64,000 nt of DNA from assembly GCA_025998675.1 (NCBI GenBank), contig AP024673.1:1-64000 (forward strand). Reading direction: 5' to 3'. Below the pieces are notes generated by a model that made no database searches, was not told the origin of the DNA, and saw only the letters and a program-made list of their open reading frames with translations. Of the stretch, positions 19,450-41,976 are shown piece after piece (position 1 is the stretch's first letter; every line of letters begins with the position of its first letter). The translations under genes were made by a program, and so were the position numbers. This DNA comes from Fimbriimonadales bacterium. GTDB taxonomy: Bacteria; Armatimonadota; Fimbriimonadia; Fimbriimonadales; GBS-DC.

Positions 19450-20253
19450 ATGAGACGCGGATTTACGCTGGTAGAGTTGCTAACGGTGATTGCGATAATC
19501 GCCATTCTGGCGGCGATTATCTTTCCCGTGGCGGGCACGGTGCGCGAGAACGCCCGCAAAAGTCGGTGTTCGTCGAATCTGCAACAGATTTTCGTGGCGT
19601 TGCAGGCGTACAAAGAGGACTATCGCGCCTATCCGCCAGTGCTGGGCGCATATGCTGTGGATGCGAACGGGAACCTGACCTGTAATCCCGCGAACGCGGT
19701 TCCGTTCAACCTCGCCCCGAAGCCTCTGGGAAGCTACCTCCGCAACGATGAGATTTTCTATTGCCCGAACAACCCCATCGACGACAAGCGCGTTATCACG
19801 CAGGCGGTCTATCCGCAGGGGCACGCGCTGGCGGGGCAGCCGGTGCGCCTGCGTCCGGGCGACGCCAGCAGCCCTGTGGTGTGCTTCTATCGCTACGACA
19901 GCTACTCTACAGGACGTATCGGGCAGAGCAGCGCTCACGAACTGCACTACACGCTTTTCTGGTCTAATCAGGCGTTGAATCAGGTAGAAAACCAGCAGAA
20001 CGGAGGGGCAACAAACTATGGCTTAGGCTACTTTGATGGACCGCTGGGTCCGAAGCCGACCGACAACCCGCGCCAGCTCGGCTATCGCACTCCTGACACG
20101 ACGGCTGTGGTCACCTGGTGCAGCTATCATCGTTCTTATAATGGAAATGTACCGACACGCGCCAAGAGCGACATCGTGCTGTTCCTGACCGGGAATGTGA
20201 AGACGGTCGACTCATTTAAGATGTTCGAGTCGCCCTACACGATGCGCCCGTAA
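19450..20253 (+). CDS. prepilin-like protein (FimU/GspH-type position)
   Basis: A 267-residue type IV pilin-like protein. The class III signal reads MRRG followed by FTLVELLTVIAIIAILAAII: short basic leader, Gly before the cleavage point, Phe+1 and Glu+5, then the hydrophobic assembly helix. The R-E-N-A-R-K-S-R-C-S-S-N-L-Q-Q turn after it is typical of the abundant prepilin-like proteins of Armatimonadota and Planctomycetota. The globular part contains a CPNNP turn and paired cysteines. It heads a run of four prepilin-like genes, in the place of fimU/gspH. GAGGGG stands just upstream of the start. Confidence 0.88.
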   Translation: MRRGFTLVELLTVIAIIAILAAIIFPVAGTVRENARKSRCSSNLQQIFVALQAYKEDYRAYPPVLGAYAVDANGNLTCNPANAVPFNLAPKPLGSYLRNDEIFYCPNNPIDDKRVITQAVYPQGHALAGQPVRLRPGDASSPVVCFYRYDSYSTGRIGQSSAHELHYTLFWSNQALNQVENQQNGGATNYGLGYFDGPLGPKPTDNPRQLGYRTPDTTAVVTWCSYHRSYNGNVPTRAKSDIVLFLTGNVKTVDSFKMFESPYTMRP

Positions 20254-22206: not shown

Positions 22207-22256
22207 CGCGGGAACTCGGACGCTACAGGTTGAGTCCAATCAGGGAGGCACACGAG

Positions 22257-24125
22257 ATGCGATTCTGGCAGGCACATCGGGAGCGACAGGCGGGCTTTAC
22301 ACTGGTGGAGCTGCTGGTGGTGATTGCGATCACCGCCATCCTGCTCGGCTTGTTGCTCATCCCGCTGGTGCAGGGCTTTCGCCTGACCCGTCAGGGGCAG
22401 ATTCAGGCGCAGGCGCAGGACACGACGCGGCTGGTCATCAATCAGTTCACCAACGACCTCAAGCGCGCCGCCTATGTGTTCGACAGCGCGGATCGGCTAA
22501 TCAACCTGCCCGTGCTGAACGGGCAGGGGCAGGTGGTCGTTGCGCCCCTGCGCTACGCGGTCATCGATATGGTGATGCCTGCCTACGGCGACCCGTCGCA
22601 GGAGTCGAACGACCCGACCTCCGACATTCCGATTAACCCTGACGGCTCCTACAACGCCGAGATTGCCGTGCCGATTGCGCCCGGACGCACGGTGGTGCGC
22701 TACTTCATTGGGCTGATGGACAACGACAATCCCTACTTCAACCCCGACGAAGTGCCCCTCGCCGCCGCAACGCAGCCCGAAAACTACGCCGTGCTGTACC
22801 GCGCCGAGTTCCGACTCTATGTGCGGCAGGGCAATCAGTGGGTGCTGAACCCGGAGCTGTTTGGCAGCATCGACGAGTTTTTTGACCCGAACTTTTTCTA
22901 CGGCGCGCGCCGCGCCGGCTGGCGCAAGGTCGCCAAGCCCGTCGTCCCGCTGGGGCAGGTGGACATGGTGAATGTGTCGTTCGACGAGCAGGGCAACCCG
23001 CGCGTCGAGTCGCTGATGCAACTCACGCCTGCGCTGGCGGTGAATCAGATGGGCGCGCCGATTGAGACCGACACGCTGGGCGACGAGGGCGCAGGCGCGC
23101 CGCCCCTGCAGATTCGCTTCCCGCAGGGGCTGTGGGATGTGAACCCGGAGACCCTGCGCCTGGTGGCGTTCCGCAGTCGCCCCGACGCGCTGCAACGCAA
23201 CGAGCCGCTGCGCTACTTCTATCTCGCGCCCAACGGCAACGGCGAATGGTACATCCGCTACTACCGCGCGACCCCCGACGGACAGGAGCGCGACGACTGG
23301 GTGGCGAACCTGACCCGAATTCAGCAGATGGTGGAGACGGGGCAGCCCCTGCCGGACTGGTTCAACAGCGCGCTCAACTACTACACCGACGCCGAGCCGA
23401 TGGCGTTCTATGTCAACAGCGAGGCAGGGCTGATTGACCTCGCGCTGCCGTGGTGGTTCCAGTACCCCGCGCAGGGCGTGAGTTTCAAAACGGGCGTCTT
23501 CGCCACGCCGTTCAACGACAGCAACCCCGACCTGACGACCATCAACGGGCGCTACAACGAGGCGTACAATCGCGACCCGAACAACGCGCCGAATGTGCGC
23601 CGCTATGTGTCGCTGATGGATCTGGACAACAACGGCGCGATGGACGGTTCGAGCAATCATCTGACCTTCCCGTCGGCGTCGATTGTGCCCGGTTCGGAAG
23701 TCGTGATTGGTCCCGACCAGCGCCCCGGACCGAACTTCGGGCGTCCCATCCGCTACCAGCGCGTCTCGGCGGCGAACGCAACGCCCGGTCCGAACCAGTA
23801 CCGTATTCTCTATCAGGACGCCGCGCCCTATCAGGAAGTGATGAACGCCTACGGCTTCACGCCGCAGTTGCTGCGCGGCTATATCGAGTTCTACAGCGAC
23901 CCGCGCACGCCCCTGCCGCCCAACGCGGAGATTTTTGTGACCTTCTTCTATCGCTTCAACCTGAACGGCGATAGCTATGTGGCGGACTACCAGACGCGGC
24001 GGCTGATGAACCTGAAGATGGGACTGAAATTCTACGGCGCGCAGCAGCCCGTGAACTACGCGCTCACGACGCAGCTGGAAGCGCCGAACATCGTGCAGGT
24101 GCGCGGAGGGATAAGGGCAAGATGA
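22257..24125 (+). CDS. large PilW/GspJ-like minor prepilin
   Basis: A 622-residue protein. The leader ends RERQAG and is followed by FTLVELLVVIAITAILLGLL, with Phe+1 and Glu+5, then LTRQGQIQAQAQDTTRLVINQFTNDLKRA, the typical PilW/GspJ helix that continues into a low-identity C-terminal region. Known PilW/GspJ proteins have 200-350 residues, so this one carries a large extension rich in N-P-D and Y. The ATG at 22257 is chosen because GGGAGG lies eight bases upstream; the frame stays open to 22203. Its stop overlaps the start of the next gene (ATGA). Confidence 0.82.
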   Translation: MRFWQAHRERQAGFTLVELLVVIAITAILLGLLLIPLVQGFRLTRQGQIQAQAQDTTRLVINQFTNDLKRAAYVFDSADRLINLPVLNGQGQVVVAPLRYAVIDMVMPAYGDPSQESNDPTSDIPINPDGSYNAEIAVPIAPGRTVVRYFIGLMDNDNPYFNPDEVPLAAATQPENYAVLYRAEFRLYVRQGNQWVLNPELFGSIDEFFDPNFFYGARRAGWRKVAKPVVPLGQVDMVNVSFDEQGNPRVESLMQLTPALAVNQMGAPIETDTLGDEGAGAPPLQIRFPQGLWDVNPETLRLVAFRSRPDALQRNEPLRYFYLAPNGNGEWYIRYYRATPDGQERDDWVANLTRIQQMVETGQPLPDWFNSALNYYTDAEPMAFYVNSEAGLIDLALPWWFQYPAQGVSFKTGVFATPFNDSNPDLTTINGRYNEAYNRDPNNAPNVRRYVSLMDLDNNGAMDGSSNHLTFPSASIVPGSEVVIGPDQRPGPNFGRPIRYQRVSAANATPGPNQYRILYQDAAPYQEVMNAYGFTPQLLRGYIEFYSDPRTPLPPNAEIFVTFFYRFNLNGDSYVADYQTRRLMNLKMGLKFYGAQQPVNYALTTQLEAPNIVQVRGGIRAR

Positions 24126-26719
24126 TGAGAGGCTATCGTTTCACAGAACGCGGTCAGACGCTGGTGATTGCCCTACTGGTCAGCTTCGTGCTGCTGGTGC
24201 TGGGCGGCGTGTTCATCACCGTGATTGCCCGCAATATCCTGAATGTGCAGCAGGCGCGCGAGCGGCTCAGCGCAGACTACTTCGCCGAGTCGGGACTGCA
24301 GTTCGCGATTGACCAGCTGGTGCGCAGCGAGTTCGGCGCAGACTGGCGTCCCGTCCCCGACAACATCACCGCGCCTGCCGATCCCGACTACTTCTGGCTC
24401 AAGCCCTACAATCCCGCGGACGGCACAGGCGGCTTCACGCGCATCAACCTGCAGAACGGGCGCGCGCTGATTCGCGTGTCGTATCAACCGTCGGGTCCCG
24501 TCCATCGCCAGCCAGTGATTAAGATTGAGTCCATCGGGCGCGTGGGGATTGTCGACCCGAACGACCCGACGACTTTCACGCAGGCGGATCGCTCCCGCCG
24601 CGCCGAGCGCGTCGCCTATATGCAGATTGGCACGATCGATTACCTGCGCTTTGTGATGAACAAAGAGCAGCGCGGCACGCTGATGGACATCGGCGCCGAG
24701 GAGGTGGGGATTGGCGCGCCGTACCGCACGATTCTGGGCGTTCCGGGACAGGGCGGCGGCTCGATGTTCGTGAATGGCAACCTGCGCTTCAGCGGAACTG
24801 TGGAGATTGCCCTGAACCCTGCGCTGGGCGAGCGGGTCTATGTGGCGGGCGAGGTGGTGCATAACACAGGCGCGCAGGTGGAGCTGCGCGTCGGCGCGAG
24901 TACCTTCACCCTGCTGCCCAGCAGCGCAACGAACTTCACAACGGCGAACGGGCTGTACCGCGACGGTCGCCCGACGACCGCCGCCGACGGCTACCCGCGC
25001 GCGATTGCCTACCTGGAGCCGCCGCGCATGGACACCGTGGACCCCGCAACCGACCGCCCGCGCTACGCCGCCGCGACGCAGGAATCGGGCGTCTGGCGGC
25101 AGCGCCCCAACGGCGTGTGGTTCAACACGGGGCAGTACGGCTATGGGCGCGGCATCTACATCAATAACGCGCTCGACAAACAGGAGGAGAGTCGCGGCTT
25201 CTTCGGCGGCTACACCCTGCGCGGCGACTGGGTGAACCCCGGCAAATCGCGCTTCTGGAACGGTCCGTTCTACGAGCCGCCCGGCGTGTTCATCGAGCTG
25301 GTGGAGACGCTCGACCCCAACGGCGCCATACGGGCGCAGGGCTTCCGCATCACGCGCAATCAGGCGGAGCCGCGCGATGTGTGGTACAGCCCCATCACCG
25401 GGCAACCGACCAACCTGAAGACGATGAACTTCTTCTTCCGCAACCCGACGAACCCGAACGACCCGACGCTCACCAGCGAAATCACGCAGGGCGATACAAG
25501 CTTCGATGTGCCCTTCAACGGCGTGATTTACGCCGAGGGCAATGTGCGCGTCAAGGGGCGCATCCCCTCGGGCAGGCAGATTACCATCGTCACGAACGGC
25601 ACGGCGTACATCGAAGGCAACATCGTCAAGGGCGACGAACGCTCCTCGCTGGCAATTATCGCGCGGGACTATGTGTGCGTGAACACGACGCAGTTCCTGC
25701 AGCGCACTTTCGATAGCCCCGCCAGCGCGCAGGGCGACCCGACCAATGTCGAAGCGCCCTACTTCTTCGAGGTGTTGCCCGACCAGCCGATGCGGTTGCT
25801 GTTCAGCTTCGGCGAGGACCCGCAGGGCTACACGGGCAACTACGGCGGGCTGCGGCTGTATCTGCGCCATGCCGCCAGCGGCGCGGGGTCGTTCATCAAT
25901 CTGCTGGTCAACCCGTCGGAATTCGCTGACCCGTTCTATCGGTTCAATATCGCGGGCTTCCCGAATGTGATGTACCCGCTGGGGCGCACGGCGTTTCAGG
26001 TCTACCCGAACTACGAGAAGGTCGCCTTCCCGCTGACGCCGCCGCCCGTCGGCTCGAACTACGGATTGGCGCCCGAACCCGGCATCCCGAACCTGCTGCA
26101 ACTGCAGCTCCAGCCGATTTCAACGCTGGGCAACTTCCAGCTGCCGACGGACAACACGCCCTATCGCTTCAGCGCGGCGGCGATTCAACCGCTGGACATC
26201 AAGATTCAGGCGGCGCTGTTCGCGCAGGAGGGGTGCTTCTTCGTGATTCCGGGCTACTGGTTCAACACTGACCCGCAGGACACGCGCGAGAACTTTGTGC
26301 GCACAGGCGCGCGCCCCGCAGGCGTCGTGTCGCCCGAATTCCCCTTCTATGGCGAACCGCTGGATATTCGCATCACGCTTGAAGGCGCGATTGCCGAGAA
26401 CTTCACCGCGCCGCTGGGCGACCAGACCGAATGGCTGCGCAAATGGGGCTGGATCCCGCGCCGCTACGGCAGCTCCAACTTCGAGATACCGCTCGAACAT
26501 CAGGAATACACGCACGATACGGCGGGGCAGTATGCGGTGAACCTGCTGATGCGCTACGATCCGATTTTCCGCAACCCGATTGTGGGCGGTCAGCCGATGC
26601 GGGTGGCGTACACGCCCGCGCAGGACCCGTCGGGGCAGCATCCGGGCAGAGTGTTGCCGCCAATCCCGCGCCTGCCCGTGTGCCCGAAACCGATTTACGC
26701 AGGCGATATTCGACCCTGA
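24122..26719 (+). CDS. large PilX/GspK-like minor prepilin without Glu+5
   Basis: An 865-residue protein. After the leader MMRGYRFTERG comes QTLVIALLVSFVLLVLGGVF, a prepilin-like helix with Ile at +5 instead of Glu. Lack of Glu+5 is the hallmark of GspK and is tolerated only at a filament tip. The following ARERLSADYFAESGLQFAIDQL matches the PilX N-terminal helix (A-x-x-G-L-x-x-A). The rest is much longer than classical PilX/GspK (about 190-330 residues) and beta-rich with many N-P-x-D turns. It overlaps the previous gene by four bases and is followed ten bases later by the first giant gene. Confidence 0.8.
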   Translation: MMRGYRFTERGQTLVIALLVSFVLLVLGGVFITVIARNILNVQQARERLSADYFAESGLQFAIDQLVRSEFGADWRPVPDNITAPADPDYFWLKPYNPADGTGGFTRINLQNGRALIRVSYQPSGPVHRQPVIKIESIGRVGIVDPNDPTTFTQADRSRRAERVAYMQIGTIDYLRFVMNKEQRGTLMDIGAEEVGIGAPYRTILGVPGQGGGSMFVNGNLRFSGTVEIALNPALGERVYVAGEVVHNTGAQVELRVGASTFTLLPSSATNFTTANGLYRDGRPTTAADGYPRAIAYLEPPRMDTVDPATDRPRYAAATQESGVWRQRPNGVWFNTGQYGYGRGIYINNALDKQEESRGFFGGYTLRGDWVNPGKSRFWNGPFYEPPGVFIELVETLDPNGAIRAQGFRITRNQAEPRDVWYSPITGQPTNLKTMNFFFRNPTNPNDPTLTSEITQGDTSFDVPFNGVIYAEGNVRVKGRIPSGRQITIVTNGTAYIEGNIVKGDERSSLAIIARDYVCVNTTQFLQRTFDSPASAQGDPTNVEAPYFFEVLPDQPMRLLFSFGEDPQGYTGNYGGLRLYLRHAASGAGSFINLLVNPSEFADPFYRFNIAGFPNVMYPLGRTAFQVYPNYEKVAFPLTPPPVGSNYGLAPEPGIPNLLQLQLQPISTLGNFQLPTDNTPYRFSAAAIQPLDIKIQAALFAQEGCFFVIPGYWFNTDPQDTRENFVRTGARPAGVVSPEFPFYGEPLDIRITLEGAIAENFTAPLGDQTEWLRKWGWIPRRYGSSNFEIPLEHQEYTHDTAGQYAVNLLMRYDPIFRNPIVGGQPMRVAYTPAQDPSGQHPGRVLPPIPRLPVCPKPIYAGDIRP

Positions 26720-26728: not shown

Positions 26729-29700
26729 ATGGCTATGAGATGGACGCAGTGGATTCTGGTAGGCGTGATAGGCTTGGGCGTTGCGTGCGCGTGGGCGGAC
26801 GGGCGCGGGTATGAGCCGCGCACCGTGCCCGTGAACGCGGGCGTCGTGGCGTTCAGCGCGAACGACTCCCTCGTGCGCGATGTCTACACTTTTTACGCGA
26901 TGGATCGGCGCGCGGACCTCAAACCGCTGGGGCTGTCGTTCCGCAATCCGTTCGCGCCCGCAGGCGCCACACGCAATCAGGCGGTCTACTGGCTGGTGGA
27001 TGTCAGCCGCCTGAACGACAACCAGCTCGCGCGCTACAAAATCCTGCTCATCAGCCGTACCAGCTGGGGGGGCATGACGGCTGAGATACGCGAGAAGCTG
27101 CGCCGCTTTGTGGACGGCGGCGGCGTGCTGTGGGTCGACACGCCCCAGCAGGGCGCGTCGGGCAGGCTGTTCTTCCCGGAAGTCGCGCCCGTCGCGAACA
27201 CTGCGCCCATCAGTATTGTGAACCTGAACCATCCGCTCCTGCGCGGCTACTACACGCTAACGCCCGGCGAGATTGCGAGTCTGGGTCTGCGCGGGCGGGG
27301 TTTCGGCGGCGGCGCGGTCGATATCACAGCGAACCGACCGCTGTTGCAGATTGTGACCGCCGTGAACGCCAGCACGCCTGTGATTGCGGCGGCGACCTAC
27401 GGGTCGGGGCGGATTATCGTCAGCGCGGCAGGAGTCGCCGCAGCCATCAACGCGCCCCTTGTGCGCAGCAACGGCTCCGTGCCCAATCAGGCGTCTGAAT
27501 TTCGCATCGAAGCCATCCCCGACCTCGAACTGAAGTTTGCGTACAACCTCGTGCGCTGGGCGGGCGCGGGCAGCAGCGACGCGTTTAATGCCCGTCGCGC
27601 GAACGCCGTCGCCGACCAGTACGGCGCGCCGCTCGGCGTGCGCTGGCGCGACCGCAATACACAGTACGCCCTGCAAAACGGCACGCCTGTTGTGTATGGC
27701 GGGCTGGTGTTTGTGGTCAGCGGCAGCAGACTGATTTGCTATGACGCTGTGCCCAGCCGCGACCTCGACGGCGACGGACGCACCGACGACGGCATCCTCG
27801 ACTACGAGCAGGGCGAGAGCTTCGACAAGGTATGGCAGGTCGATCTGGGCGGTCAGTCGTCGCCGCCCGTGGTGGTGGAGACCCCGCAGGGGCTGCAGGT
27901 TGTGGCGCTGGTGGGCACGGAAGTGCGCGGCTACTGGGCGCTGCCGCGCAACGCGCAGGGACGCATTCCCGAAGTGGGGCAACTGGTCTGGTCGGTTAGC
28001 TCGCCCGCGCCCGCCGCCTCGACGCCCACCACCGCGGATGGGCAAATCCCCCCGCCCATCGTGATTGACAACACGCTGCTGCTGGTTCCCTCGCTCCATC
28101 AGGCGGGCGCGAATGTATCGGCGGGCTTCTACGCTGTGCTGCTGAAGAATCCGCCCGAAGTGGTGCGCACCAGCGGCGTATTCCCTGGCGAGTGGTTCCA
28201 GCCGCGCACAGGCAACGCGGGCAGCTGGTTGCTGCCAGCGGCGGCGGGTTATGTGCCCAACTACGCGCAGGGCGGCGGCAACGATGTCGTGGTCTATCTC
28301 GGCACCCGACGCGATGTGGGCGGCACAGGCTCCAGCCAGCTCGAAGGCGTACAGGCGTTCTGGATTGGCGCAAAGGGCGAGGTGCTGACCCCCGCGATTA
28401 ACAGCGCGGGCGTCTACCAGAACTATCTGCGCTCGCGCATCACCGGGCGCGCCCGCTACTATGTGCCCGCCGAGGGTATCACGCACCCGCTCTATCCGCG
28501 CGTGTTCCGAATCCACAACACCACCGGCGCCTTCGAGGACATTACCCGCGATTGCGAGTTCAACCCGCCCGCGGAACAGGGACGCATCAAATACACGGGC
28601 GACGGCAGGGGCGACATCGGCGACTACACCTACATCGTCGACTACTACATCGACTGGGCGTATGCGACGAACTTCAACCTGATGTTCCGCACCTTCGCGA
28701 GCCTGCCGCCGTATTCGGACAGCAGCTCCGCGCCGCCGCAGAAGCTGCGCGGATTCACCCTTGCGCCCAACGGCGTGCTCTATATTACAACAGGCACAGA
28801 CGCGACCGACGCCAACACCGCCAGCGGCAGTGTGATTGCCCTGCAGGAGCAGTCGCCTCCGACTCAGCAGCAAACGCGCGGCGGCTCGAAAATCCTCTGG
28901 CGCTGGCAGTCGCACGGGGGCTACTCGCAGGCTGTGCCCGGCGCCGCCGAGCCTGTGATTGTGCCGCCCAGCGCCATCTACCGCGAGCCGAACGAATACT
29001 TTATGCGGTTCGTCGGACGGTTCCTGCGCTTCAGCAACGATTTCGTGCCCAACGCGAATGACGAGCCGCAGCGCCAGTGGATGAACTTCACTTTTATCGG
29101 CGCGCCGATTTACTACGACGGCGCCGTGTACGCCTTCGCCGTCGGACAGGCGCGCATCGGCGGCTTCCCAATCGGCATTCCCTATACGACCATCGTCGCG
29201 CTGGACGCCGAGCCAGAGCAGTTTGTGATTGACCTCGGCGCGCCCATCGCGACATCGGGCGATGTGCGAATCAGCCAGCGCGACTACGGACGCTCCGGAC
29301 CGAACCCCATCACGAACATCGTCTCAACGCTGACCTATTCGCCCAACAGCCCGAACCCTGACATCAAGGTCGACTTCACGACCGGGCAGATTCGCATCAC
29401 AGGTTTCGGGCAAGCGGACGGCGGCGGGCAGATTCGACTGCTGGAGAATGTGCTGAGCCTCACGCAGCCCGTGCAGGTGAGCGTCGGCAACACCTTCAAC
29501 ACGCTACTCGATCCCGACCGAATCGCGGGCAACTGGAACAACATGCGTTGGTACGCCGTGCTGCTGGGACAGCAGCTGAAGGCGAACCCCGTACTGGTGG
29601 GCGACACGATGTTCCTGCCCTGCGAGATTACCGTGCCGACCGGGAGCGGGCTGGAGACCTTCGGCAGCATTCTGGGCATCGCAGCCGACCCCTACCGCCT

Positions 29701-31378
29701 GCAACCTGACCTCGCCCAGCGCAAGGATCAGGCGGGAACCATCCCGCGCGTCGACCCGGTGAACCCCCTGAAGTATCAGTCCATTATCCGCTGGCCGTTT
29801 ATCGACGACCTGATTACCGATCTGGAGGAAGACCCCGATCCCGGCGCGTTCCTGCGCGAGCTGTTCCGTCGGTTTGCGGAAGGCTCGCAGGTGGGCACGG
29901 GACTGTCGCCGATTGCGGTCGGCGAGGGGCTGCTGGTGATTAGTTCGGGCGAGGGGCTGCAGGCGTACAGTCGGCAGGGCACGATTATCGCCGATGAGAG
30001 CCGCCTGCTGGAGGTGGACACCGCCGGGCGCGTCATCTGGTCCACTGAGAACACGCAGCTCGACTTCTACACGGGTTCCATCGTTTCCAGCAAGGCGCGC
30101 TACCCGATAACCCCCAACGCGCGCGTGTACCGCTACGGCGAGAACGAGCTGCTGATTGTGGAGCCTGAACGCAACCGCGTCGCGATTCTCGACCGCGCAG
30201 GCGCGGAAGTGCGCACCATCACGCGCTTCATCCCTGACCGTGTGCCCCTGCGCGACAACGACGGCAATATGACGCAGATTGTCGACCTGCGCGACGAGGC
30301 GTGGGCGCAGGCGAACAACCTGCCCGGCTCCAACTACATCGCGGGCGCGCCCGACACGCTGCGCAACCCGACCGATGTCACGGTCTGGACCGAATTCGTG
30401 CCCGCCAGCCGCAACCCCTACACGAACCGCCAGCCGCTGGAATACTGGATCCACTACACGATTACCGACACGGGCAACGCGCGCGTGGTGGACATCGTGG
30501 ATCGCTATCAGGCAGACCCGAACACCTTCACCGTCGGCGCTCCTGTGCAGGATGCACAGCTGGGTGCGATGCTGGGCGTGCTTTACTGGATGACGCCCAC
30601 CCAGCGACTGGAGCGCGCCTACCGCTATGTGTCGGCGCAGCGGTTCGAATACTGGGACGGCAACACGACGCGCATCGGGTTTGCGACGCTCGTGCAAAAC
30701 ACCGCCGCGAGCGGCTTCGAAGCGACCCTCACAAGCGACCCGCTCGACCCGCGCACGCCTGAAGCAGGGATGATTACCCTGCAGCTGATTGTGAACGGGC
30801 GCGACCAGACGATTTACATTCGGCGGATGCGTCTGCCCGATGGGCGCGTCGTGCCCATCCTCGCGCCTGTCGCCATCGATACGGCGAAACGAAGCGCGAG
30901 CGGGCAAGGCAACGCGGGACTCTATCTGCTGGTGACGACCAGCACGGGCATCTATGAATTGCAAGTCCCTCTCACGGGAACCGTCGGCGACACGCTGAAT
31001 GTCACATGGATGCTCACCAACGAGGCATACACAAACGCCATCCGTCGACGGCTGGACGGCAACGACCTCGCGGAAAACGGCGGCGACCTGTTGCGTCCGA
31101 TTCTGTTCAAGCCGCGTCAGGCGCGCTATCTGGGCAACGGCAATGTGCTGATTGTGAACGCCTACAGCGGCACGACGCTGGTGCGCTCAGGCTCTAATAT
31201 CGAGCCGCGCGAGTTTCCGGGTGAGGTGTTTGAGCTGGATGCGAACGATTACCGCGCGGGGCGCGACGACCTGGGCTTCAGCAACGCATCGATTGTGTGG
31301 AGTACGCTCGACCGTCCTGAACTGAGCGGCTCGACGCAACTGCGCAAGCCCAGCTCCGCCGATCGGGGAGGATTTTAG
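26729..31378 (+). CDS. giant secreted beta-propeller-like protein, PilY1-like position
   Basis: 1549 residues. A signal peptide (MRWTQWILVGVIGLGVACAWA) leads into a domain at about residues 30-260 that looks like a Rossmann/GATase-type fold (KILLISRTSWGG, then FVDGGGVLWVDTP). From about residue 310 there are repeated blade-like segments such as GTPVVYGGLVFVVSGSRLICYD. A calcium-type loop DLDGDGRTDDG lies near residue 344. The C-terminal half has further short strands (ENELLIVEPERNRVAILD). Recognised PilY1 proteins also combine an N-terminal alpha/beta domain with a calcium-binding propeller and are encoded directly after PilX. Homology is inferred from position and layout, not detected directly. 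Two starts, 26729 and 26735, are possible; the second is better spaced from AGGTGGGG. Confidence 0.6.
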   Translation: MAMRWTQWILVGVIGLGVACAWADGRGYEPRTVPVNAGVVAFSANDSLVRDVYTFYAMDRRADLKPLGLSFRNPFAPAGATRNQAVYWLVDVSRLNDNQLARYKILLISRTSWGGMTAEIREKLRRFVDGGGVLWVDTPQQGASGRLFFPEVAPVANTAPISIVNLNHPLLRGYYTLTPGEIASLGLRGRGFGGGAVDITANRPLLQIVTAVNASTPVIAAATYGSGRIIVSAAGVAAAINAPLVRSNGSVPNQASEFRIEAIPDLELKFAYNLVRWAGAGSSDAFNARRANAVADQYGAPLGVRWRDRNTQYALQNGTPVVYGGLVFVVSGSRLICYDAVPSRDLDGDGRTDDGILDYEQGESFDKVWQVDLGGQSSPPVVVETPQGLQVVALVGTEVRGYWALPRNAQGRIPEVGQLVWSVSSPAPAASTPTTADGQIPPPIVIDNTLLLVPSLHQAGANVSAGFYAVLLKNPPEVVRTSGVFPGEWFQPRTGNAGSWLLPAAAGYVPNYAQGGGNDVVVYLGTRRDVGGTGSSQLEGVQAFWIGAKGEVLTPAINSAGVYQNYLRSRITGRARYYVPAEGITHPLYPRVFRIHNTTGAFEDITRDCEFNPPAEQGRIKYTGDGRGDIGDYTYIVDYYIDWAYATNFNLMFRTFASLPPYSDSSSAPPQKLRGFTLAPNGVLYITTGTDATDANTASGSVIALQEQSPPTQQQTRGGSKILWRWQSHGGYSQAVPGAAEPVIVPPSAIYREPNEYFMRFVGRFLRFSNDFVPNANDEPQRQWMNFTFIGAPIYYDGAVYAFAVGQARIGGFPIGIPYTTIVALDAEPEQFVIDLGAPIATSGDVRISQRDYGRSGPNPITNIVSTLTYSPNSPNPDIKVDFTTGQIRITGFGQADGGGQIRLLENVLSLTQPVQVSVGNTFNTLLDPDRIAGNWNNMRWYAVLLGQQLKANPVLVGDTMFLPCEITVPTGSGLETFGSILGIAADPYRLQPDLAQRKDQAGTIPRVDPVNPLKYQSIIRWPFIDDLITDLEEDPDPGAFLRELFRRFAEGSQVGTGLSPIAVGEGLLVISSGEGLQAYSRQGTIIADESRLLEVDTAGRVIWSTENTQLDFYTGSIVSSKARYPITPNARVYRYGENELLIVEPERNRVAILDRAGAEVRTITRFIPDRVPLRDNDGNMTQIVDLRDEAWAQANNLPGSNYIAGAPDTLRNPTDVTVWTEFVPASRNPYTNRQPLEYWIHYTITDTGNARVVDIVDRYQADPNTFTVGAPVQDAQLGAMLGVLYWMTPTQRLERAYRYVSAQRFEYWDGNTTRIGFATLVQNTAASGFEATLTSDPLDPRTPEAGMITLQLIVNGRDQTIYIRRMRLPDGRVVPILAPVAIDTAKRSASGQGNAGLYLLVTTSTGIYELQVPLTGTVGDTLNVTWMLTNEAYTNAIRRRLDGNDLAENGGDLLRPILFKPRQARYLGNGNVLIVNAYSGTTLVRSGSNIEPREFPGEVFELDANDYRAGRDDLGFSNASIVWSTLDRPELSGSTQLRKPSSADRGGF

Positions 31379-31380: not shown

Positions 31381-34300
31381 ATGAGGTATCAGTGGAGGCA
31401 CGGCATGAAGCGACTGTTTGCGGGGTTCTGGATTGGCGTGGCGACGCTGGCGCTGAGCGCCGCGCAGGATAGCTGGAGTACCCATCGCGGCAGCAATCAG
31501 CGCACGGGAACGACCACCAACGCCCAGAGCAGCCTGGTGAACTTCCTGCTGGCGTGGACGCTGCCCGATATGGACTCGGTGCGCCTGCCCGTCGTGGTGG
31601 ATAATGATGCAGTGGGACTTACCAGCTCAACCCCCGCAGGCGCGTGGAAGACGCCCTCCGCCGCAGAGCGAGCGGTGGATCCGTATCTGGACGACCCGGA
31701 TTCGACCGTGCCCTATCAGTATATTGAGTGCGTGCGTGAGCCAATTAATCCGGGCGACCCGGTACCCTCGGTCGCTCGCTTCGCATGGCGCAGTGGGCAA
31801 CTCCCGCCGGGCTACTACCGAATCTGGGTTTATGTGCCCAGCGACGATACGCGCGTGGGCGGGTTTGCTGCATCCTACGCACGCCAGGCAGAGTATGAAG
31901 TGGCGGACGCGACGGGAACCCAACTAACGCTGTACCTGAACCAGACGCTGGGCGGGTGGCAACCGCTGGGCGACCGACCGTTCTATCACGACGGCGCGAC
32001 GGAGATTGTCATCACGCTCAACAACCTCATTCGCCGAACCAGTCCCGACTATCCGCTGAGCATCACGCCGATTGTCGCGGCGGACGCGGTGCGCTTCGTG
32101 CCCGACTACGGCACGGTACAGGCGTCGCCAGTGGCGATTCGCAGCCCGCTGAACCCCGGCAATCACCTGGTGTATGTGGCGAACGGCAACGGCACGATTA
32201 CCTGCATGGAGAACCCTGTCGGCACGCGCGGCGCGCGCGTGCGCTGGACTTTCCGCGTGCCCGATTTGCCCGATCAGGGCGGGGGACAGGTTTATGACGA
32301 TGAGGACGCGAACTTCACCGCGGGGCTGTTCACGCCGAACGACGCACTGGGCGACCGCTATGAACGCCTCTACCACGAAATCGCGCCTACCAACGACTCC
32401 AGCAACATCCAGCGCGCCTACTGGAAGGTTCAGGCGCCGGACACAGGTCTGTATTATATCTATGCGTGGTTCCCCTCGGACGACCTGAACGCGCGGCAGG
32501 CGCAGTATGTGATTGAGAACGAGGGCGACAACCTGAGTGTGCGCGTCGACCAGCGGTTCGGCGGGCGGTGGGTGCTTTTGAATAACCTGCCGGTGGAGAT
32601 GCGCAGCGGACGCACCTACGAAATCTCGGTGACCAACTACTCGCCGGAGGATGTCGTCGTGGGTTCGCAGCGCGTGATTGCGGACGCGATTCGCGTGGTG
32701 AGCGCGGACGGGCTGACGAACGCAGTCTTCAGCACGCCTGCAGTCGGCAGGGTGCGCGTGCGCGACGGCAGCAGTACCGTCCTGCGCTGGGTGGTGGTTT
32801 TCGGCGCACAAAACGGCGCGGTCTACGCTATCGACGCGCTGGGCGACGGCGAGAACGACACCCGCCGCGGCGAGACCAAACTCTACTGGATTGTCAAGCC
32901 CGCCAACTCCACCAGCTTCAGCTACGCCTCGCCGCTGATTCTGGAGAGCCAGGACCTGGTCGCGATTGGCAATCCCGCAGGCTCCGTCTACCTGATCAAA
33001 ACCGATTTAGACCCTGAAGATGCGGACACCTACTTCCGCTGGCAGTACGATCGATTCGGCGCGTCGTTCGTCTCGACGCCTGCCTATAACCCCAGCACAG
33101 GGCTGATCTACATCGGCAGCTCGGAAGGGAGCAACCAGTTTGGGCGGCTGATTGCGTTGAATCCATCTCGCCAGGACGACCCCAACACAACAGAAGACGA
33201 GCGCGTGGCGTGGGTCTATCCGCCTGAGGATCAGAATCCTATTGAGCCGATTACCAGCACGCCTGCGGTCGCGCTGGGGCGCGTCTACTTCACCACAGGC
33301 GGACTGAACGGCGGACGACTCTATGCGGTAAAGGCGGACAACGGCTCGCTGGAATGGGCGCGCCCGGCGCTGAATGCGCCGCTGGTGGGGCTGTTCAACT
33401 TCTACTACAGCTCGCCGCTGGTGGTGCAGGGGCTGCTGTACCGGGGCGTTTCGGAAAACATCGTCTATGTCGGCGGCACAGGGGGGCGCGTCACTGCCTT
33501 CAACGCCGATACAGGCGAACTGCGCTACATCAGTGAAAACCTCGGCGGAGCCATCTTCAGCTCACCGATATTCACCTATGTGCGCGACACCGACGCGAAT
33601 GGCAATCTGATAGGGGATCGCCCCGCTATCGTGGTCGCCACCAATTCAGGACTGCTGCTTGCGCTCCACGCCGACGAGCAGGTGAACGACCGCAACGGCA
33701 AAGCCTTCGAGGGGTGGGACCTGTACGCCAACACGGTGTTCGCCTCGCCGGGCGTGCTGGACAACTGGCTCTACGCCGCGGACGATGAGGGCATCGTGTA
33801 CGCCTACAATGTGCTGGGAGTCGCCACAACTGCCCCAGAGACGGGACTGGGCGGCGTCATTCGCACGCCGACCCAGACCACAACCCCCGACGGCTCGGAC
33901 TACTCCCGACTGCGCGTCTCGGTGACCACGCGCAAGGAAGACGCCGACGCCGTGCTGGCAGGCGCCATCCGCCCCGACGAGCTGGAGCCGCGCTTCCCCG
34001 ATGCACTGGAGTGGGGCGACACGATTTATGTGGTCGTGTGGAACTTCAAGCAGGGCACGAACCCACAGCCGATGCGTATCCAGCTGATTGGTCCGGGCGT
34101 CACGCGTGTGGAGTATAAGCTTTCGCCTCGCCAGACGACCCGACCGCCCACAGGCAACCCCGACATGGATTGGGTGGCGGTGCAATCCATCACGATTCAG
34201 TCGTCGGGCAACAACTTCTACACGCCGGGCGAGAAGTACGAGCTGCAGGTGCGCTTCGGCAACGCGGGCTGGACCTCCGACCTTGCTATCGAGACCGCCC

Positions 34301-37300
34301 GTATTGACCGTCCTGCGGCTGGGGGCGGTCTGGAAGTGCCGCCCTACGGCGGCGACGACCCCGATGCGCTGCTCACTGGCGCGGGCTGGCGTTTCGGCGT
34401 TGCGAATCCGGTGGGACTGGAAGGCGTCGGCGTCATCGGTGCAGGCGGCGCCGAGCAAAACCTGTTCAACGGCAATAACGGAACGCTGGTCAGCGCGCGC
34501 TTCCGCAACCCGGCAGGCGGGATCGTACCTGTTGGCGCAGGCGAGCATGGCAAAACGCTGTTTGGCGACTTCTTCGCACGCGATCGCCGCACGCCGCAAA
34601 CCTCGAATGTGGTACCTATCGCGATTAACGCCCGCGCCTATGTGGACGACATGCGCTGGCAGGGCGGGGCAGGGGCGGTCATCCGTGCGCTGCCCTGGGA
34701 GGTGCTGCCCACGCTCCCCAACCGCAGCCCGGATTACCCCGACATCTCCGGGCGACGCATCCAGATGCTGCTGGACGGCGGTACCGACCTGCAACGCGCC
34801 GCAGCGCGCCTGCTCTCGACAGGCAACCGCGTCGATGTGCAGGTCGAAATCCCGCGCTTCCAGCCCGCAAACCTGACCGGCTACTCCTCCCGTACTTATG
34901 TCTTCGCCGACTCGAACAACAACGGGCGATTCGACGGGCTGGAAAGCGTACTCCAGCCGGGCGTGTCGCAGAACCTGCGCATCGAAGCGTACCGCGAGCT
35001 GGTCTCCACCGCGACTGTCCAGCCCGATGAACGCCTCTTTGTGGAGGAGCAAACCATCGATCTGGGCTCGTTGCCCGGCGGGTTCGGCTTCAACTGGGGC
35101 AACCTGTTCGCGAACCATCCGTCGTCCACTTTCCGCCCCGACAACCCGATATTCGCGCCGTTCTGGAAGACCTTCACCGTGCGCAACGAAGGGAATGTGA
35201 ACCTTTATCCTGTCTATCTGGGCAAAGCGTTCGGCAGCCCGTCGGGCACGGTGTTCCTCTTCTCGGACATGGTGAGCTTCTTCGCGGGAATGCCCGCGTG
35301 GACAACGGTCGCCAGCACGCTGGACACGCGCTTCTGGCCGCAGCCGAACCCGTTTTATCCGGGCAACAACCAGCCGTACCCGATTCTGCAGAAACCGCAG
35401 GTGGGCGACTACGCCTCGACGGTGCTCACACAGCCAGCGATTCCGCCGCGGCGCGACCCCAGCATCGTGGTCGAGCCGCGCAAGCCGCAGGTCTCGCTGG
35501 CTATCCCGCCGTTCCAGCCGATGGGCGTCTACTCGCAGCTGATTGCGCCGTACCAGCACAACGACGGCGGGACGCCCGGCGCCGTGAACGGCGCGTTTGC
35601 CACGCCGCCGATGCGACTCGTGGCGCGCGTGCGCGAGACCCAGCTCACGGGCGGCACGAATCGGGGCGTCGCGCCGATGATTGATACGGCGGCAAGCGCG
35701 ATCAGCGACATCACACCCGCCGCGTTCCGCGACCCGGAGACGGGCAGGCTGCACCTCTACTGGGCGAGCAACCGTCCCGACCCCACGGGGCGCCCGAACA
35801 GCTTCTACCTCTACAAGGCGACGCTCGACTGGAACGGCGCGAACACCCTGCAGAACGGCATCCGCACGGCGAACGGCTGGTCGCCTGACGCGCTGAACCG
35901 CTGGTGGGAAGCGCCCCTCGGTCCCTACCCGAATGACCCCAGCGGCAACCTCTTCAGCGCGGCGCTCGGGCTGGGACGCGCGCTAACCCCTGCCGAAATT
36001 GCGACCATCAAGCACCATCGCCCGTTTGTGCGCGTGGCGCAGGACACGGGCGTGCGCGGCGGACGCCCCGTGGCGTATCTGTTCTGGACAGGCGAGGTCA
36101 TCCTGCGCAACCAGAAGTACGAACTGCTGTTCTATGTGCCGCTGGACACGCAGACCGGCAACCCGGTGGGCAATCCGCAGGCGGTTCCGTTAGACCCGGT
36201 CATGCCGCGTTCCAGCCTCTCCATCGCGGGTGTAGACGGCGTGGGCAACTGGCTGTTCTATGTCGCCGCGCCGTCGGGACGCAGCCAGATGTTCGCCATC
36301 GCTTCGGAAGGCGACCTGTTCGGCGGCTGGCGGCGCGAGCAGCGCGTGCCCCTCTCGCCCGTGGTGCGCTCGGTGGAGAGCGTGAGCGCGAACATCTATC
36401 GCGTCGCCGCGAACCCTGACGCCAACAACAGAAACTTCATCTATCTGGCGGATGTCTACTTCATCGGCACAGTCGGCGACCGCAACGAGTCGGAGGTGCT
36501 GATGCAGCGGTTCTATGTGAACCCGCGCAACGGCAATCTGCTCACGCTGAGCGACAACCGCGCGGATCGCTCGCTGGGCGTCACGCAGGAGCGGTTCCTG
36601 CCCGTGGTCGCCGATGAGGTCGCCCAGAAAGACCCCGATCAGAATGTGTGGCGCACGCGCCACCTCGACTGGGCGTTCATCGAGCGCGGCTGGAACAGCG
36701 TCCCCAACGCGCCCGATGTCGACATCAAAATCAATGGCAGATCGATTCTGCTGACGCGCCGCGCCGATAACCCGAACCTGTTCACCCTGCAAGCGCCTGT
36801 GGTGGACGAGCAGACGGGGCTGCTGCAGTTCGAGTTCAACGAGCCTGTGCTGGGCGGCGGGGGGCAGGTGGTGAACCTGTTGCCGCGCGGGCGCATCGTG
36901 GTGGACCCCAACAACGGCACGGTGCGCTTCGTGAACTTCGCGCCGCGCCTGAACGACCTCGTGACAGTGACTTATCGCCCGCGCGTGTATCGCATCAGCG
37001 CGATTGCCCCCGGCTCGGCGGGAACCTATTCGCAGCTGCGCACGGTCTTCCAGCGCACGATGAACCCGCGCCACACGGAGAACAACCCCGGCGACTCGCC
37101 CGTGCGCAAAGGCGCGAACAACGGCGCATGCGAATTGGACGACCGTCCGCCAGTGGATCGAATCTGGCTCTTCTTCCGCCGCACGAGCGCGCCGCCCAAC
37201 AGCTCGGGCAACTTCTTCTTCAAGACGCTGCGTCCGGGCGTGCGCCTGCAGTCGCCCATCCTGACCCAGCGCGGGCGCGTGCCCGTGCAGACGGGCGCGT

Positions 37301-37782
37301 TCACCCTCGCGCTGGGATCCAACCACGCGGTGGTGCAACTCACCCCGAACAATGTGGGGGGCGCCGGGTTAGGCGCGTATGAGTACGACGGCTTGCGCGG
37401 CAACATCTACTTCACCGCCGCCGACCTCGGCAAGGAAGTGCAGGTGCGCTACCTGGCGCGCGACCGTGCAGGCAACATCGTGGAGCTGACCGAGACGCTC
37501 ATCGTGCGCTGGATCGACGAGGGCAACCTCGCACGCTCCTTCGCCACGGAGGTCGAATACACCTCGCCCGTGCCGATTGACCTGCCCACGAACGAGCTGT
37601 ACCTGTGGACGACGCCGAATGTGGAGTTCCGCGGCAACCCGCAACTGGGCGGTCCCTACGGCGCGCTGGACGAGTCGATCCTGCTCTTCTGGAGCAGCAC
37701 GCGCAACGGCGTGGGCAACATCTACGGCGGGGCAATCCAGCCGCGCTTCTACATCAGCCCGTTCGACGCTGACGGCGACTAA
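31381..37782 (+). CDS. giant secreted protein with golvesin-like domains and PQQ-type propeller
   Basis: About 2133 residues. A signal peptide (MKRLFAGFWIGVATLALSAA) is followed by two copies of a domain that looks like the golvesin/Xly C-terminal carbohydrate-binding fold: RIWVYVPSDD near residue 147 and YYIYAWFPSDD near residue 360, each followed by GGWQPLGDRPFYHDG- or GGRWVLLNNLPVEMR-type strands and a V-A-D-A-I-R ending. Residues about 475-820 contain PQQ/BamB-like blades (FGAQNGAVYAIDALG, AIGNPAGSVYLIKTD, VGGTGGRVTAFNADTGELRY). The second half has further blade-like pieces (GRLHLYWASNRP, LLFWSSTRNGVGNIY). Two starts have ribosome sites: 31381 and 31405; the second gives the cleaner signal peptide. 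It ends the pilin operon and is followed by a strong hairpin. Confidence 0.65.
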   Translation: MRYQWRHGMKRLFAGFWIGVATLALSAAQDSWSTHRGSNQRTGTTTNAQSSLVNFLLAWTLPDMDSVRLPVVVDNDAVGLTSSTPAGAWKTPSAAERAVDPYLDDPDSTVPYQYIECVREPINPGDPVPSVARFAWRSGQLPPGYYRIWVYVPSDDTRVGGFAASYARQAEYEVADATGTQLTLYLNQTLGGWQPLGDRPFYHDGATEIVITLNNLIRRTSPDYPLSITPIVAADAVRFVPDYGTVQASPVAIRSPLNPGNHLVYVANGNGTITCMENPVGTRGARVRWTFRVPDLPDQGGGQVYDDEDANFTAGLFTPNDALGDRYERLYHEIAPTNDSSNIQRAYWKVQAPDTGLYYIYAWFPSDDLNARQAQYVIENEGDNLSVRVDQRFGGRWVLLNNLPVEMRSGRTYEISVTNYSPEDVVVGSQRVIADAIRVVSADGLTNAVFSTPAVGRVRVRDGSSTVLRWVVVFGAQNGAVYAIDALGDGENDTRRGETKLYWIVKPANSTSFSYASPLILESQDLVAIGNPAGSVYLIKTDLDPEDADTYFRWQYDRFGASFVSTPAYNPSTGLIYIGSSEGSNQFGRLIALNPSRQDDPNTTEDERVAWVYPPEDQNPIEPITSTPAVALGRVYFTTGGLNGGRLYAVKADNGSLEWARPALNAPLVGLFNFYYSSPLVVQGLLYRGVSENIVYVGGTGGRVTAFNADTGELRYISENLGGAIFSSPIFTYVRDTDANGNLIGDRPAIVVATNSGLLLALHADEQVNDRNGKAFEGWDLYANTVFASPGVLDNWLYAADDEGIVYAYNVLGVATTAPETGLGGVIRTPTQTTTPDGSDYSRLRVSVTTRKEDADAVLAGAIRPDELEPRFPDALEWGDTIYVVVWNFKQGTNPQPMRIQLIGPGVTRVEYKLSPRQTTRPPTGNPDMDWVAVQSITIQSSGNNFYTPGEKYELQVRFGNAGWTSDLAIETARIDRPAAGGGLEVPPYGGDDPDALLTGAGWRFGVANPVGLEGVGVIGAGGAEQNLFNGNNGTLVSARFRNPAGGIVPVGAGEHGKTLFGDFFARDRRTPQTSNVVPIAINARAYVDDMRWQGGAGAVIRALPWEVLPTLPNRSPDYPDISGRRIQMLLDGGTDLQRAAARLLSTGNRVDVQVEIPRFQPANLTGYSSRTYVFADSNNNGRFDGLESVLQPGVSQNLRIEAYRELVSTATVQPDERLFVEEQTIDLGSLPGGFGFNWGNLFANHPSSTFRPDNPIFAPFWKTFTVRNEGNVNLYPVYLGKAFGSPSGTVFLFSDMVSFFAGMPAWTTVASTLDTRFWPQPNPFYPGNNQPYPILQKPQVGDYASTVLTQPAIPPRRDPSIVVEPRKPQVSLAIPPFQPMGVYSQLIAPYQHNDGGTPGAVNGAFATPPMRLVARVRETQLTGGTNRGVAPMIDTAASAISDITPAAFRDPETGRLHLYWASNRPDPTGRPNSFYLYKATLDWNGANTLQNGIRTANGWSPDALNRWWEAPLGPYPNDPSGNLFSAALGLGRALTPAEIATIKHHRPFVRVAQDTGVRGGRPVAYLFWTGEVILRNQKYELLFYVPLDTQTGNPVGNPQAVPLDPVMPRSSLSIAGVDGVGNWLFYVAAPSGRSQMFAIASEGDLFGGWRREQRVPLSPVVRSVESVSANIYRVAANPDANNRNFIYLADVYFIGTVGDRNESEVLMQRFYVNPRNGNLLTLSDNRADRSLGVTQERFLPVVADEVAQKDPDQNVWRTRHLDWAFIERGWNSVPNAPDVDIKINGRSILLTRRADNPNLFTLQAPVVDEQTGLLQFEFNEPVLGGGGQVVNLLPRGRIVVDPNNGTVRFVNFAPRLNDLVTVTYRPRVYRISAIAPGSAGTYSQLRTVFQRTMNPRHTENNPGDSPVRKGANNGACELDDRPPVDRIWLFFRRTSAPPNSSGNFFFKTLRPGVRLQSPILTQRGRVPVQTGAFTLALGSNHAVVQLTPNNVGGAGLGAYEYDGLRGNIYFTAADLGKEVQVRYLARDRAGNIVELTETLIVRWIDEGNLARSFATEVEYTSPVPIDLPTNELYLWTTPNVEFRGNPQLGGPYGALDESILLFWSSTRNGVGNIYGGAIQPRFYISPFDADGD

Positions 37783-37788: not shown

Positions 37789-37814
37789 AGGGGAACCGCC
37801 GAAGCGGTTCCCCT
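37789..37814. terminator. bidirectional terminator between the giant gene and icd
   Basis: AGGGGAACCG (37789-37798) pairs perfectly with CGGTTCCCCT (37805-37814) around a 6-base loop. It sits 6 bases after the stop of the giant gene and 28 bases after icd on the other strand. On the minus strand the hairpin is followed by TTCACTTTTAG, a modest T-run. Confidence 0.75.
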
Positions 37815-41789: not shown

Positions 41790-41884
<95 letters not shown>

Positions 41885-41891
41885 GAGCGTA

Positions 41892-41967
41892 TGGCGCCCT
41901 CGGAGGGATTCGAACCCCCGACGCCCTCCTTAGGACGGAGGCGCTCTATCCACTGAGCTACGAGGGC
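41892..41967 (-). tRNA. tRNA-Arg (anticodon CCT)
   Basis: Acceptor stem GCCCTCG/CGAGGGC, D-arm TAGCTCAGTGGATAGAGC, anticodon stem CCTCC/GGAGG with loop GTCCTAA (anticodon CCT, codon AGG), T-loop GGTTCGAATCC, discriminator G and encoded CCA (41892-41894). It is 76 bases with CCA. Confidence 0.95.
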
Positions 41968-41976
41968 AAAACAGAA

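Follow-up and report, generated by a model that had tools for sequence, protein, structure and literature searches.

What role is played by a 2133-residue protein whose gene closes a row of pseudopilin genes is the question raised by the window analysed here, a stretch of 64,000 nt (AP024673.1, positions 1-64,000, forward strand; GCA_025998675.1, Fimbriimonadales bacterium) from the Armatimonadota, a phylum that has seen little bench study. The gene for this giant protein, P0001, is real: its frame runs along the plus strand without an internal stop, in agreement with the original prediction, and as this frame has orthologs and profile matches, the long minus-strand open frames in the region were set aside. 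The following features are recognised in and just behind the gene:

31381..37782, plus strand: giant protein P0001, 2133 aa open frame with orthologs and profile matches
31381..31464, plus strand: probable Sec signal peptide, residues ~1-28 (basic start, hydrophobic stretch and Ala-rich end, by sequence reading)
31534..31566, plus strand: N-terminal strand with W59, residues ~52-62, thought from the conservation of W59 to close blade 8
31582..32106, plus strand: golvesin-type domain 1, residues ~68-242, following the closing strand and preceding blade 1
32116..33816, plus strand: BamB-like eight-bladed propeller, residues ~246-812, interrupted by golvesin-type domain 2
32266..32718, plus strand: golvesin-type domain 2 (residues 296-446), separating blade 1 from blade 2
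34909..34935, plus strand: EF-hand-like DSNNNGRFD, possible calcium site, residues 1177-1185
35671..37779, plus strand: C-terminal region, residues ~1431-2133, perhaps a second propeller (weak support) into which beta domains are inserted
37789..37814, unstranded: hairpin of 11 pairs directly 3' of the P0001 gene, from a terminator-like scan

To judge from its N-terminus, P0001 is probably exported. The hairpin probably marks the end of the operon; the scan lists it on the minus strand only, and with 15 sites found against 12.5 expected in shuffles, terminator-like sites are little commoner than in shuffled sequence.

The two golvesin-like domains predicted for P0001 are borne out by Pfam, where the match to Golvesin_C (PF25275) reaches 75.1 bits (E 7.1e-21; cut-off 31.6 bits), two stretches being matched at E 1. 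Taken alone, domain 2 exceeds this cut-off (68.7 bits) and domain 1 falls under it (23.8 bits, E 5e-5). With an HMM of 25 second domains, domain 1 of P0001 scores 55 bits and 24 of the 25 first domains pass E 0.01, the best shuffled control reaching 2.7 bits, so that the first domain is, on these sequence scores, homologous to the second. Both domains are read by HMM in all 38 orthologs, 13 of them from outside the HMM training set, while Pfam confirms the pair in 12 of these 13 and in 16 of the 20 of the same order. Set A9 comprises 23 second and 13 first golvesin domains, the near-duplicate loci L030 and L031 having been omitted from it as well as from A3, A4 and A5. The predicted Y-x-I-x-x-W/V-x-P-S-D-D plus G-G-W-x-x-L motif holds approximately, its exact form differing between Y-x-I-x-x-Y-x-P-S-D-D with GGWxxL in domain 1 and Y-x-I-x-x-W-x-P-S-D-D with GGRWxLL in domain 2; the S-D-D part is restricted to the closest relatives and, in domain 1, is absent from some of those. 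A profile of both domains matches residues 905-1038 of a xanthan lyase (PDB 6f2p) at E 3e-15, two further PDB chains, at E 0.046 and 2, being disregarded, and a PDB search with the single P0001 sequence gave chance matches only. The identification of the domain as CBM84, a xanthan-binding module, was dropped because PMC10049358 and PMC11002231 place CBM84 in xanthanases and are, in their available text, silent on the matched lyase module. The "cellulose-like" ligand once suggested is without specific support.

The predicted PQQ-like propeller is present, with PQQ_2 at 30.9 bits against a cut-off of 27.6 and a structure model that groups with eight-bladed propellers (VIA-align Z of 37.1, rmsd 1.9 and 305 residues for Cake8; Z of ~33 for BamB). 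As the match covers model residues 220-787, that is residues 244-811 of the protein, domain 2 is enclosed by the propeller, while domain 1 appears from the sequence to lie between the propeller-closing N-terminal strand and blade 1. The golvesin domains are thus not ahead of the propeller, as had been supposed, but are both inserted, flanking its first blade. W59, which is invariant in set A3 and near-invariant in set A7, is one of eight blade-end W/Y positions (59, 289, 503, 554, 611, 659, ~716 and 779). The model, of medium quality (pLDDT 57.6), does not resolve the closing strand at W59; the golvesin domains form its weaker part, being mostly strands at low confidence, and the structural search matches are filled by the propeller. 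P0001 was rejected both as BamB (TIGR03300 equivalog, 20.4 bits against a cut-off of 285.2) and as a PQQ-dependent dehydrogenase (TIGR03075, 13.8 bits against 480).

Beyond the propeller, the second propeller proposed late in the protein finds weak support in a model with a pLDDT of 41 and a best Z of 10.1, for a PLL lectin, with sialidases, arabinanases and TolB also matched, over residues ~1507-1896. This model is too poor for a fold to be assigned, and Pfam gives no match to the C-terminal region at E 10. The pattern D-x-[DN]-x-[DN]-G-x-x-[DEN] occurs anywhere in 23 of the 38 P0001 orthologs (chance 0.03 per protein), by reading near the place of residues 1177-1185 in ~21 of the 23, and with this incidence a universal calcium site in P0001 was rejected. 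The PilY1 calcium motif Dx(D/N)xDGxxD does not occur in P0001, where the only variant, DxNxNGxxD, lies outside the propeller.

The P0001 gene is the last of a cassette with the order P0005-P0004-P0002-P0003-P0001, which comprises:

19450..20253, plus strand: DUF1559/GspG-like pseudopilin (SBP_bac_10 (DUF1559) 35.1 bits; N_methyl 29.2 bits), possibly the first cassette gene
20365..22206, plus strand: P0005, PilV/GspI-like minor pseudopilin, 613 aa (N_methyl 23.1 bits, over the cut-off)
22203..24125, plus strand: P0004, PilW/GspJ-like minor pseudopilin, 640 aa (N_methyl 33.2 bits; IV_pilin_GFxxxE 24.3 bits, over the cut-off)
24122..26719, plus strand: P0002, putative PilX/GspK-like large minor pseudopilin, 865 aa (N-terminal hydrophobic segment, place in the cassette)
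26729..31378, plus strand: partner protein P0003, 1549 aa, with a DUF4159-like N-terminus, weak PQQ-like repeats and a PilY1-type calcium motif
27761..27787, plus strand: calcium motif DLDGDGRTD of P0003, matching PilY1 motif 1, residues 345-353

The true start of P0004 probably lies further in. P0005 matches TIGR02523 PilV at 21.8 bits, under the cut-off, and P0002 is without an NCBIfam match, its one Pfam match being DUF7305 at E 0.24. P0003, which may be exported to judge from its N-terminus, matches DUF4159 at 27.8 bits against a cut-off of 25.9 and PQQ_2 at 17.5 bits, under the cut-off, while its profile has no match that counts in the PDB. PilY1 motif 1, in the definition given in the accessible portion of PMC13190605, occurs in 30 of 33 P0003 orthologs, against 0.0015 expected by chance in each protein, a set scored without the partial P0003 of L030, L031 and L042. 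Membership of P0001 in the PilY1 family was rejected, since PF05567 matches neither P0001 nor P0003 at E 1. Across the phylum PF05567 was found in none of 291 genomes, but the control genomes gave none either, so that this is no proof of absence. The resemblance of P0001 to PilY1 is one of gene order and of its partner's motif: P0001 stands beside PilV-, PilW- and PilX-like genes, the PilX identity being putative, with P0003 between.

The cassette is widely conserved. Matches to the single P0001 sequence occur in 46 of 61 genomes, its own included, and a profile of the middle region of P0001 finds it in 194 of 291 Armatimonadota genomes. The P0003 family occurs in 241 of the 291, and P0003 is found without P0001 in 54 genomes. 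The P0001 of L052 was missed by the single sequence and found by the profile; as the single-sequence search had not listed it there, this locus (genome G047) stands outside the 25- and 38-ortholog sets. The 20 loci of the same order and 13 distant loci examined were picked from match lists and are not a random sample. Within the stretch covered at each of the 20 same-order loci the cassette order is kept, with P0003 present in 20, P0001 and P0002 in 19 each, and P0004 and P0005 in 17 each. In each of the 33 rows of a comparison covering 32 loci, P0003 and P0001 share a strand. Their frames lie at most 260 bases apart, the exceptions being L061 (1622 bases) and L033, where P0003 is split and its first half is set further off. 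P0003 does not adjoin P0001 in the distant loci L062, L066 and L073. Both giants are absent from two small genomes of genus g30, of which one has no PilM and the other a PilM match at E 1.6e-8, and from G148 (96% complete), which has a strong PilM.

Linkage to pilM and to a secretin gene is seen in the distant loci. A PilM-like gene follows P0001 after 132-238 bases in nine of the 12 testable loci, L064 having given the query and L069 having been left out for too little downstream sequence. Seven of these nine have a secretin 4.6-5.5 kb further on, the stretches of the other two ending sooner, and the remaining three (L065, L067 and L070) show no PilM within 4.3-6.3 kb downstream of P0001. The cassette in the window is not adjacent to the pilM-secretin operon of its own genome (L080); among the three stretches compared, the six operon genes of L064 and the six of L061 all have their best matches in L080. 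PilM occurs in 284 of the 291 genomes against 194 for P0001, and the occurrence of PilM, and in 54 genomes of P0003, without P0001 indicates that P0001 is not needed for a pilus system.

The pseudopilin cassette, the calcium motif of P0003, the linkage to pilM and secretin genes and the similarity to xanthan lyase favour a carbohydrate-binding head at a pilus tip, and the earlier proposal of such a head on a pilus-tip protein, its domain layout apart, remains the best-supported reading, with the binding of glycans and the place at the tip as its conjectural parts. It is fairly probable that P0001 is the lectin-like component furthest out in a tip and priming complex of PilY1 type on a PilM-secretin type IV pilus-type machine. 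The two genus g30 genomes that lack both giants speak for this reading; the missing PF05567 match, the separation of the cassette from the pilM-secretin operon in the own genome, the distant loci without PilM or without an adjoining P0003, and G148 speak against it. The PilV-, PilW- and PilX-like minor pseudopilins would form the tip of the filament and carry P0003, whose calcium motif is PilY1-like and might act as a calcium switch, and P0001 would sit on or beside P0003. The P0001 propeller would display both golvesin-type domains, whose insertion between blades 8/1 and 1/2 probably places them on one propeller face, and the polysaccharide that these domains may bind could belong to the matrix, to neighbouring cells or to plant litter. 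More tentatively, and with somewhat less than even confidence, much of the Armatimonadota may possess a pilus tip without PilY1, in which P0003 with its calcium motif and P0001 share priming, switching and sugar-specific attachment, serving a PilM-secretin machine that exists in addition to the canonical one.

The cassette might instead serve a T2SS-like pseudopilus, with the giants as secreted substrates or a secretion plug and the golvesin domains handling secreted polysaccharides or polysaccharide-degrading enzymes. The secretin of the own genome scores nearly equally against GspD (163.6 bits) and PilQ (157.2 bits), both under the cut-off, and the PilO-like gene matches T2SSM (T2SS protein M) at E 0.0005, under the cut-off, which together make a secretion pseudopilus possible; the pseudopilin at 19450 is moreover closest in NCBIfam to GspG (37.8 bits, under the cut-off), and a T2SS has been assigned to Armatimonadetes in the available text of PMC6668835. 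This reading is nonetheless unlikely, as the cassette-linked secretin of L064 leans towards PilQ (178.8 bits against 160 for GspD, both under the cut-off) and the PilY1-type calcium motif of P0003 suits a pilus tip better. A T2SS normally has a GspL fusion, whereas PilM is here separate and passes its cut-off (208 bits against 133). Highly improbable is a pseudopilin-driven complex for polysaccharide export or capsule anchoring, like the hormogonium polysaccharide system, in which the golvesin domains hold polymer at the cell surface. HpsC is the best NCBIfam match of P0004, but at 27.7 bits against a cut-off of 200 and in the N-terminal part only, where pilins are alike, and although a capsule was seen in Fimbriimonas and a complete EPS cluster was not found, according to a partial text of PMC4072686, the 20 neighbouring frames scanned give no glycosyltransferase match.

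A rather unlikely reading, compatible with a role of P0001 at the tip, gives the golvesin domains no part in sugar binding and takes them for structural spacers, or for modules that bind protein and so fasten the propeller to its partner. All 38 orthologs keep precisely two copies in one order, which suggests a fixed architecture, adhesive lectin domains being usually more variable. Against this, the nearest solved relative is the module of a polysaccharide lyase, and the related domains Cbeg4 and Cbeg5 of Bacteroides lectins bound glycans, as reported in the accessible part of PMC9166713. By analogy with this lyase module and these lectins, the golvesin domains of P0001 may bind glycans.

P0001 is a conserved and testable candidate for the attachment of Armatimonadota to surfaces or polysaccharides. 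Should the tip reading be true, a pilus tip in the manner of PilY1 can be made from other parts, and the golvesin domains, few of which are characterised, would gain a role in pili. Literature on golvesin contains, in titles and abstract openings, nothing on pili, and the literature listed for Fimbriimonas pilin, Armatimonadota type IV pili and Armatimonadetes minor pilin yields, mostly at the level of listings, nothing on P0001.

Among known systems, the Verru_Chthon families (TIGR02596/02598/02599) are likewise pseudopilins, but P0004, P0005 and the 19450 pilin match them under the cut-offs throughout (16.3 to 23.6 bits against 51.4 to 256.5). The PilM and secretin of the own genome match the Amuc_1098 and Amuc_1101 pilus families of NCBIfam, all far under the cut-offs, and the canonical pair matches too. 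With BamB and PQQ_2 propellers P0001 shares its fold, but it has inserted domains and ~1300 further residues. Golvesin_C at the C-terminus of the Paenibacillus xanthan lyase is matched along nearly the whole domain; in the lyase it is a terminal enzyme module, whereas in P0001 it is doubled and inserted in the propeller of a pilus-cassette protein. In Myxococcus, PilY1 and minor pilins constitute a priming and tip complex, according to the available text of PMC7541494. P0001 resembles PilY1/PilC with its minor pilins in being a large propeller protein whose gene follows those of PilV/PilW/PilX-like proteins, and in having a partner with PilY1 calcium motif 1. It differs in that the role would be split over two giants, and in carrying golvesin domains, unmentioned in the accessible portion of PMC13190605 on PilY1, where PilY1 as described by this source has a vWFA or DUF4114 head.

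The giant protein P0001 is encoded in an open frame of 2133 codons (31381-37782, + strand). The frame is preceded by a Shine-Dalgarno-like GGAGG and followed directly on its 3' side by an 11-pair hairpin, and the window that contains it is the initial 64 kb of a 2.99-Mb contig. The original prediction placed two golvesin-like domains ahead of a PQQ-like propeller in this protein. In Pfam searches the protein reaches 75.1 bits with Golvesin_C, for which the cut-off is 31.6, and 30.9 bits with PQQ_2, for which it is 27.6. By itself, golvesin domain 2 scores 68.7 bits against Golvesin_C and domain 1 scores 23.8 bits, below the cut-off of 31.6. With an HMM of second domains, domain 1 of the window protein reaches 55 bits versus 2.7 bits for the best shuffled control, and it is therefore considered a true golvesin copy. 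No Golvesin_C match is found outside P0001 in the window's own genome.

An AlphaFold model of P0001 residues 25-990, built from six sequences, has a pLDDT of 57.6 and a pTM of 0.53, and conclusions were drawn from its better parts alone. In VIA-align comparisons the model resembles the designed eight-bladed propeller Cake8 (Z 37.1, 305 residues, rmsd 1.9) and E. coli BamB (Z about 33). The propeller-matched span extends over residues 244-811 and encloses golvesin domain 2. The frame, the two golvesin domains and the propeller were correctly predicted, but the order of the domains was not. Blade-end tryptophans, with a tyrosine in one place, occur at positions 59, 289, 503, 554, 611, 659, about 716 and 779. 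We read this sequence pattern as eight blades, on the assumption that blade 8 is completed by the N-terminal strand at residue 59. Blades 8 and 1 would then flank golvesin domain 1, and domain 2 would separate blade 1 from blade 2. From general propeller topology, both domains probably project from one face. The model of the C-terminal part (residues 1075-2133) is poor (pLDDT 41), and the likeness of its confident part to lectin, sialidase and arabinanase propellers (Z 8-10) gives no more than a hint of the second propeller predicted late in the protein.

P0001 is widely distributed in the Armatimonadota, with single-sequence matches in 46 of 61 genomes (own genome counted) and matches to a profile of its middle region in 194 of the 291 phylum genomes. 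Among the 194 genomes with completeness of 90% or more and contamination of 5% or less, 148 match. A golvesin HMM was built from the domains of 25 orthologs, namely the window protein plus 24 from its order, and it detects two copies in each of 38 P0001 orthologs; 25 of these match by construction, and the independent test comprises 13 distant orthologs, hand-chosen from the profile match list (E from 2e-10 to 3e-31). Pfam Golvesin_C is matched in 13 of the 14 sequences of one ortholog set (A7, including the window) and 16 of the 20 of another (A4). A separate second frame of about 435-466 aa with a golvesin-type match is present in the relatives G001, G004, G015, G016, G017, G046 and G048.

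Upstream of P0001 lie the following frames:
20365-22206, PilV-like pseudopilin (P0005)
22203-24125, PilW-like pseudopilin (P0004)
24122-26719, PilX-like pseudopilin (P0002)
26729-31378, partner protein P0003, after the PilX-like frame

Adjoining frames of this cassette overlap by four bases or are spaced by 2-9 bases. The names PilV, PilW and PilX are tentative, being based on weak N-terminal sequence matches and gene order. Among 20 loci of the same order, chosen from single-sequence P0001 matches, P0003 is found in 20, P0001 and the PilX-like protein in 19 each and the PilW- and PilV-like proteins in 17 each; the misses fall on stretches that end early, except for P0001 of locus L052, which is seen by profile only. 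Judged by eye, P0001 (about residues 1840-1868), P0003, P0004 and P0005 may have in common a beta motif that recurs among them (G-x-I/V-x-F ... P ... V-x-V-x-Y). Further upstream, a 486-aa frame (16420-17880, +) contains near-identical tandem repeats (AVSADGNVVVGGSYN...ERAFRWT) and a dockerin-I-like C-terminal stretch (19.1 bits, below the cut-off of 22.9). Elsewhere in the window are three clustered tRNA genes (41792-42052, -) and a proton-pumping pyrophosphatase gene (50717-53323, +; H_PPase 818 bits).

The N-terminus of P0003 resembles DUF4159 (27.8 bits, Pfam cut-off 25.9), while its PQQ_2 score falls short of the Pfam cut-off. Of 33 P0003 orthologs, 30 carry Dx(D/N)xDGxxD, a calcium motif known from PilY1 (PMC13190605), with 0.0015 expected per protein. 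P0003 occurs in 241 of the 291 phylum genomes; in raw counts, which ignore kinship and genome incompleteness, 187 of the 194 P0001 genomes contain P0003 and seven do not, while P0003 alone is found in 54 and neither giant in 43. P0001 lacks an adjoining P0003 in three of 13 distant loci (L062, L066 and L073). P0003 is split over two frames in L033 (5328-9969), and one in-frame stop lies inside the P0003 profile match in G041, G044, G127 and G145; these may reflect assembly error, decay or match overrun.

In nine of 12 testable distant loci the next gene after P0001 is PilM-like, on the same strand and 132-238 bases away; the query for this comparison came from L064, itself among the nine. A secretin gene follows 4.6-5.5 kb on in seven of the nine, the other two stretches ending sooner. 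Pfam PilM is matched in all five loci scanned (L061, L063, L064, L066 and L068) and Secretin in both loci scanned (L061 and L064). In L067 a DNA methylase gene comes next, and no PilM was found in the downstream sequence examined of L065 and L070. The window's own genome encodes two PilM-secretin systems. Among three genome stretches compared, six P0001-linked operon genes of L064 and six of L061 all match best to the system at 2.535-2.541 Mb (L080); for one of them, L064's small STN gene, the match is to the secretin frame of L080. The cassette therefore probably belongs to this second system and would have been separated from it in this genome. Neither P0001 nor P0003 is present in two genomes of the small-genome genus g30 in the same order (G054 and G055; each 1.5 Mb and 97% complete), with no PilM match in one and only E 1.6e-8 in the other, which suggests that the whole pilus system was lost with genome reduction; as one lineage, they count as one event. 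Against tight coupling, PilM is present in 284 of 291 genomes, many without P0001, and neither giant is present in G148 (96% complete), where PilM matches strongly. The machine could also be a type II secretion system, as its secretin in the window's own genome resembles GspD about as much as PilQ, its PilO-like gene gives a weak T2SSM match and such systems have been assigned to Armatimonadetes (PMC6668835). About 24 kb from the cassette, the stretch 61821-64000 (+) encodes a PilB-type assembly ATPase (PilB 658 bits, just below the cut-off of 676) with an MshEN domain and c-di-GMP motif and, after it, another match to the T2SSE family, PilT-like, which continues beyond the window end.

In Myxococcus, a complex of PilY1 with minor pilins acts in priming and as the tip (PMC7541494), and PilY1 heads are variable and include a putative sugar-binding domain (PMC13190605). 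By analogy, P0003 would be a calcium-bearing platform and P0001 a sugar-binding head. The golvesin-domain profile matches Paenibacillus xanthan lyase 6f2p (residues 905-1038, E 3e-15), and the CBM domains of the lectins Cbeg4 and Cbeg5, of a type also reported in a xanthan lyase and in golvesin that may correspond to Golvesin_C, bound glycans on arrays (PMC9166713); together these suggest that the P0001 domains may bind sugar. The predicted pilus-tip carbohydrate-binding head gains partial support from the conserved pseudopilin cassette, the calcium motif of P0003, the PilM and secretin linkage and the 6f2p match, but neither P0001 nor P0003 matches PF05567 in Pfam. The P0001 cassette probably represents a variant of the PilY1 tip, similar in arrangement but made of propeller proteins lacking a PilY1 family match, one of which has golvesin domains nested in it.
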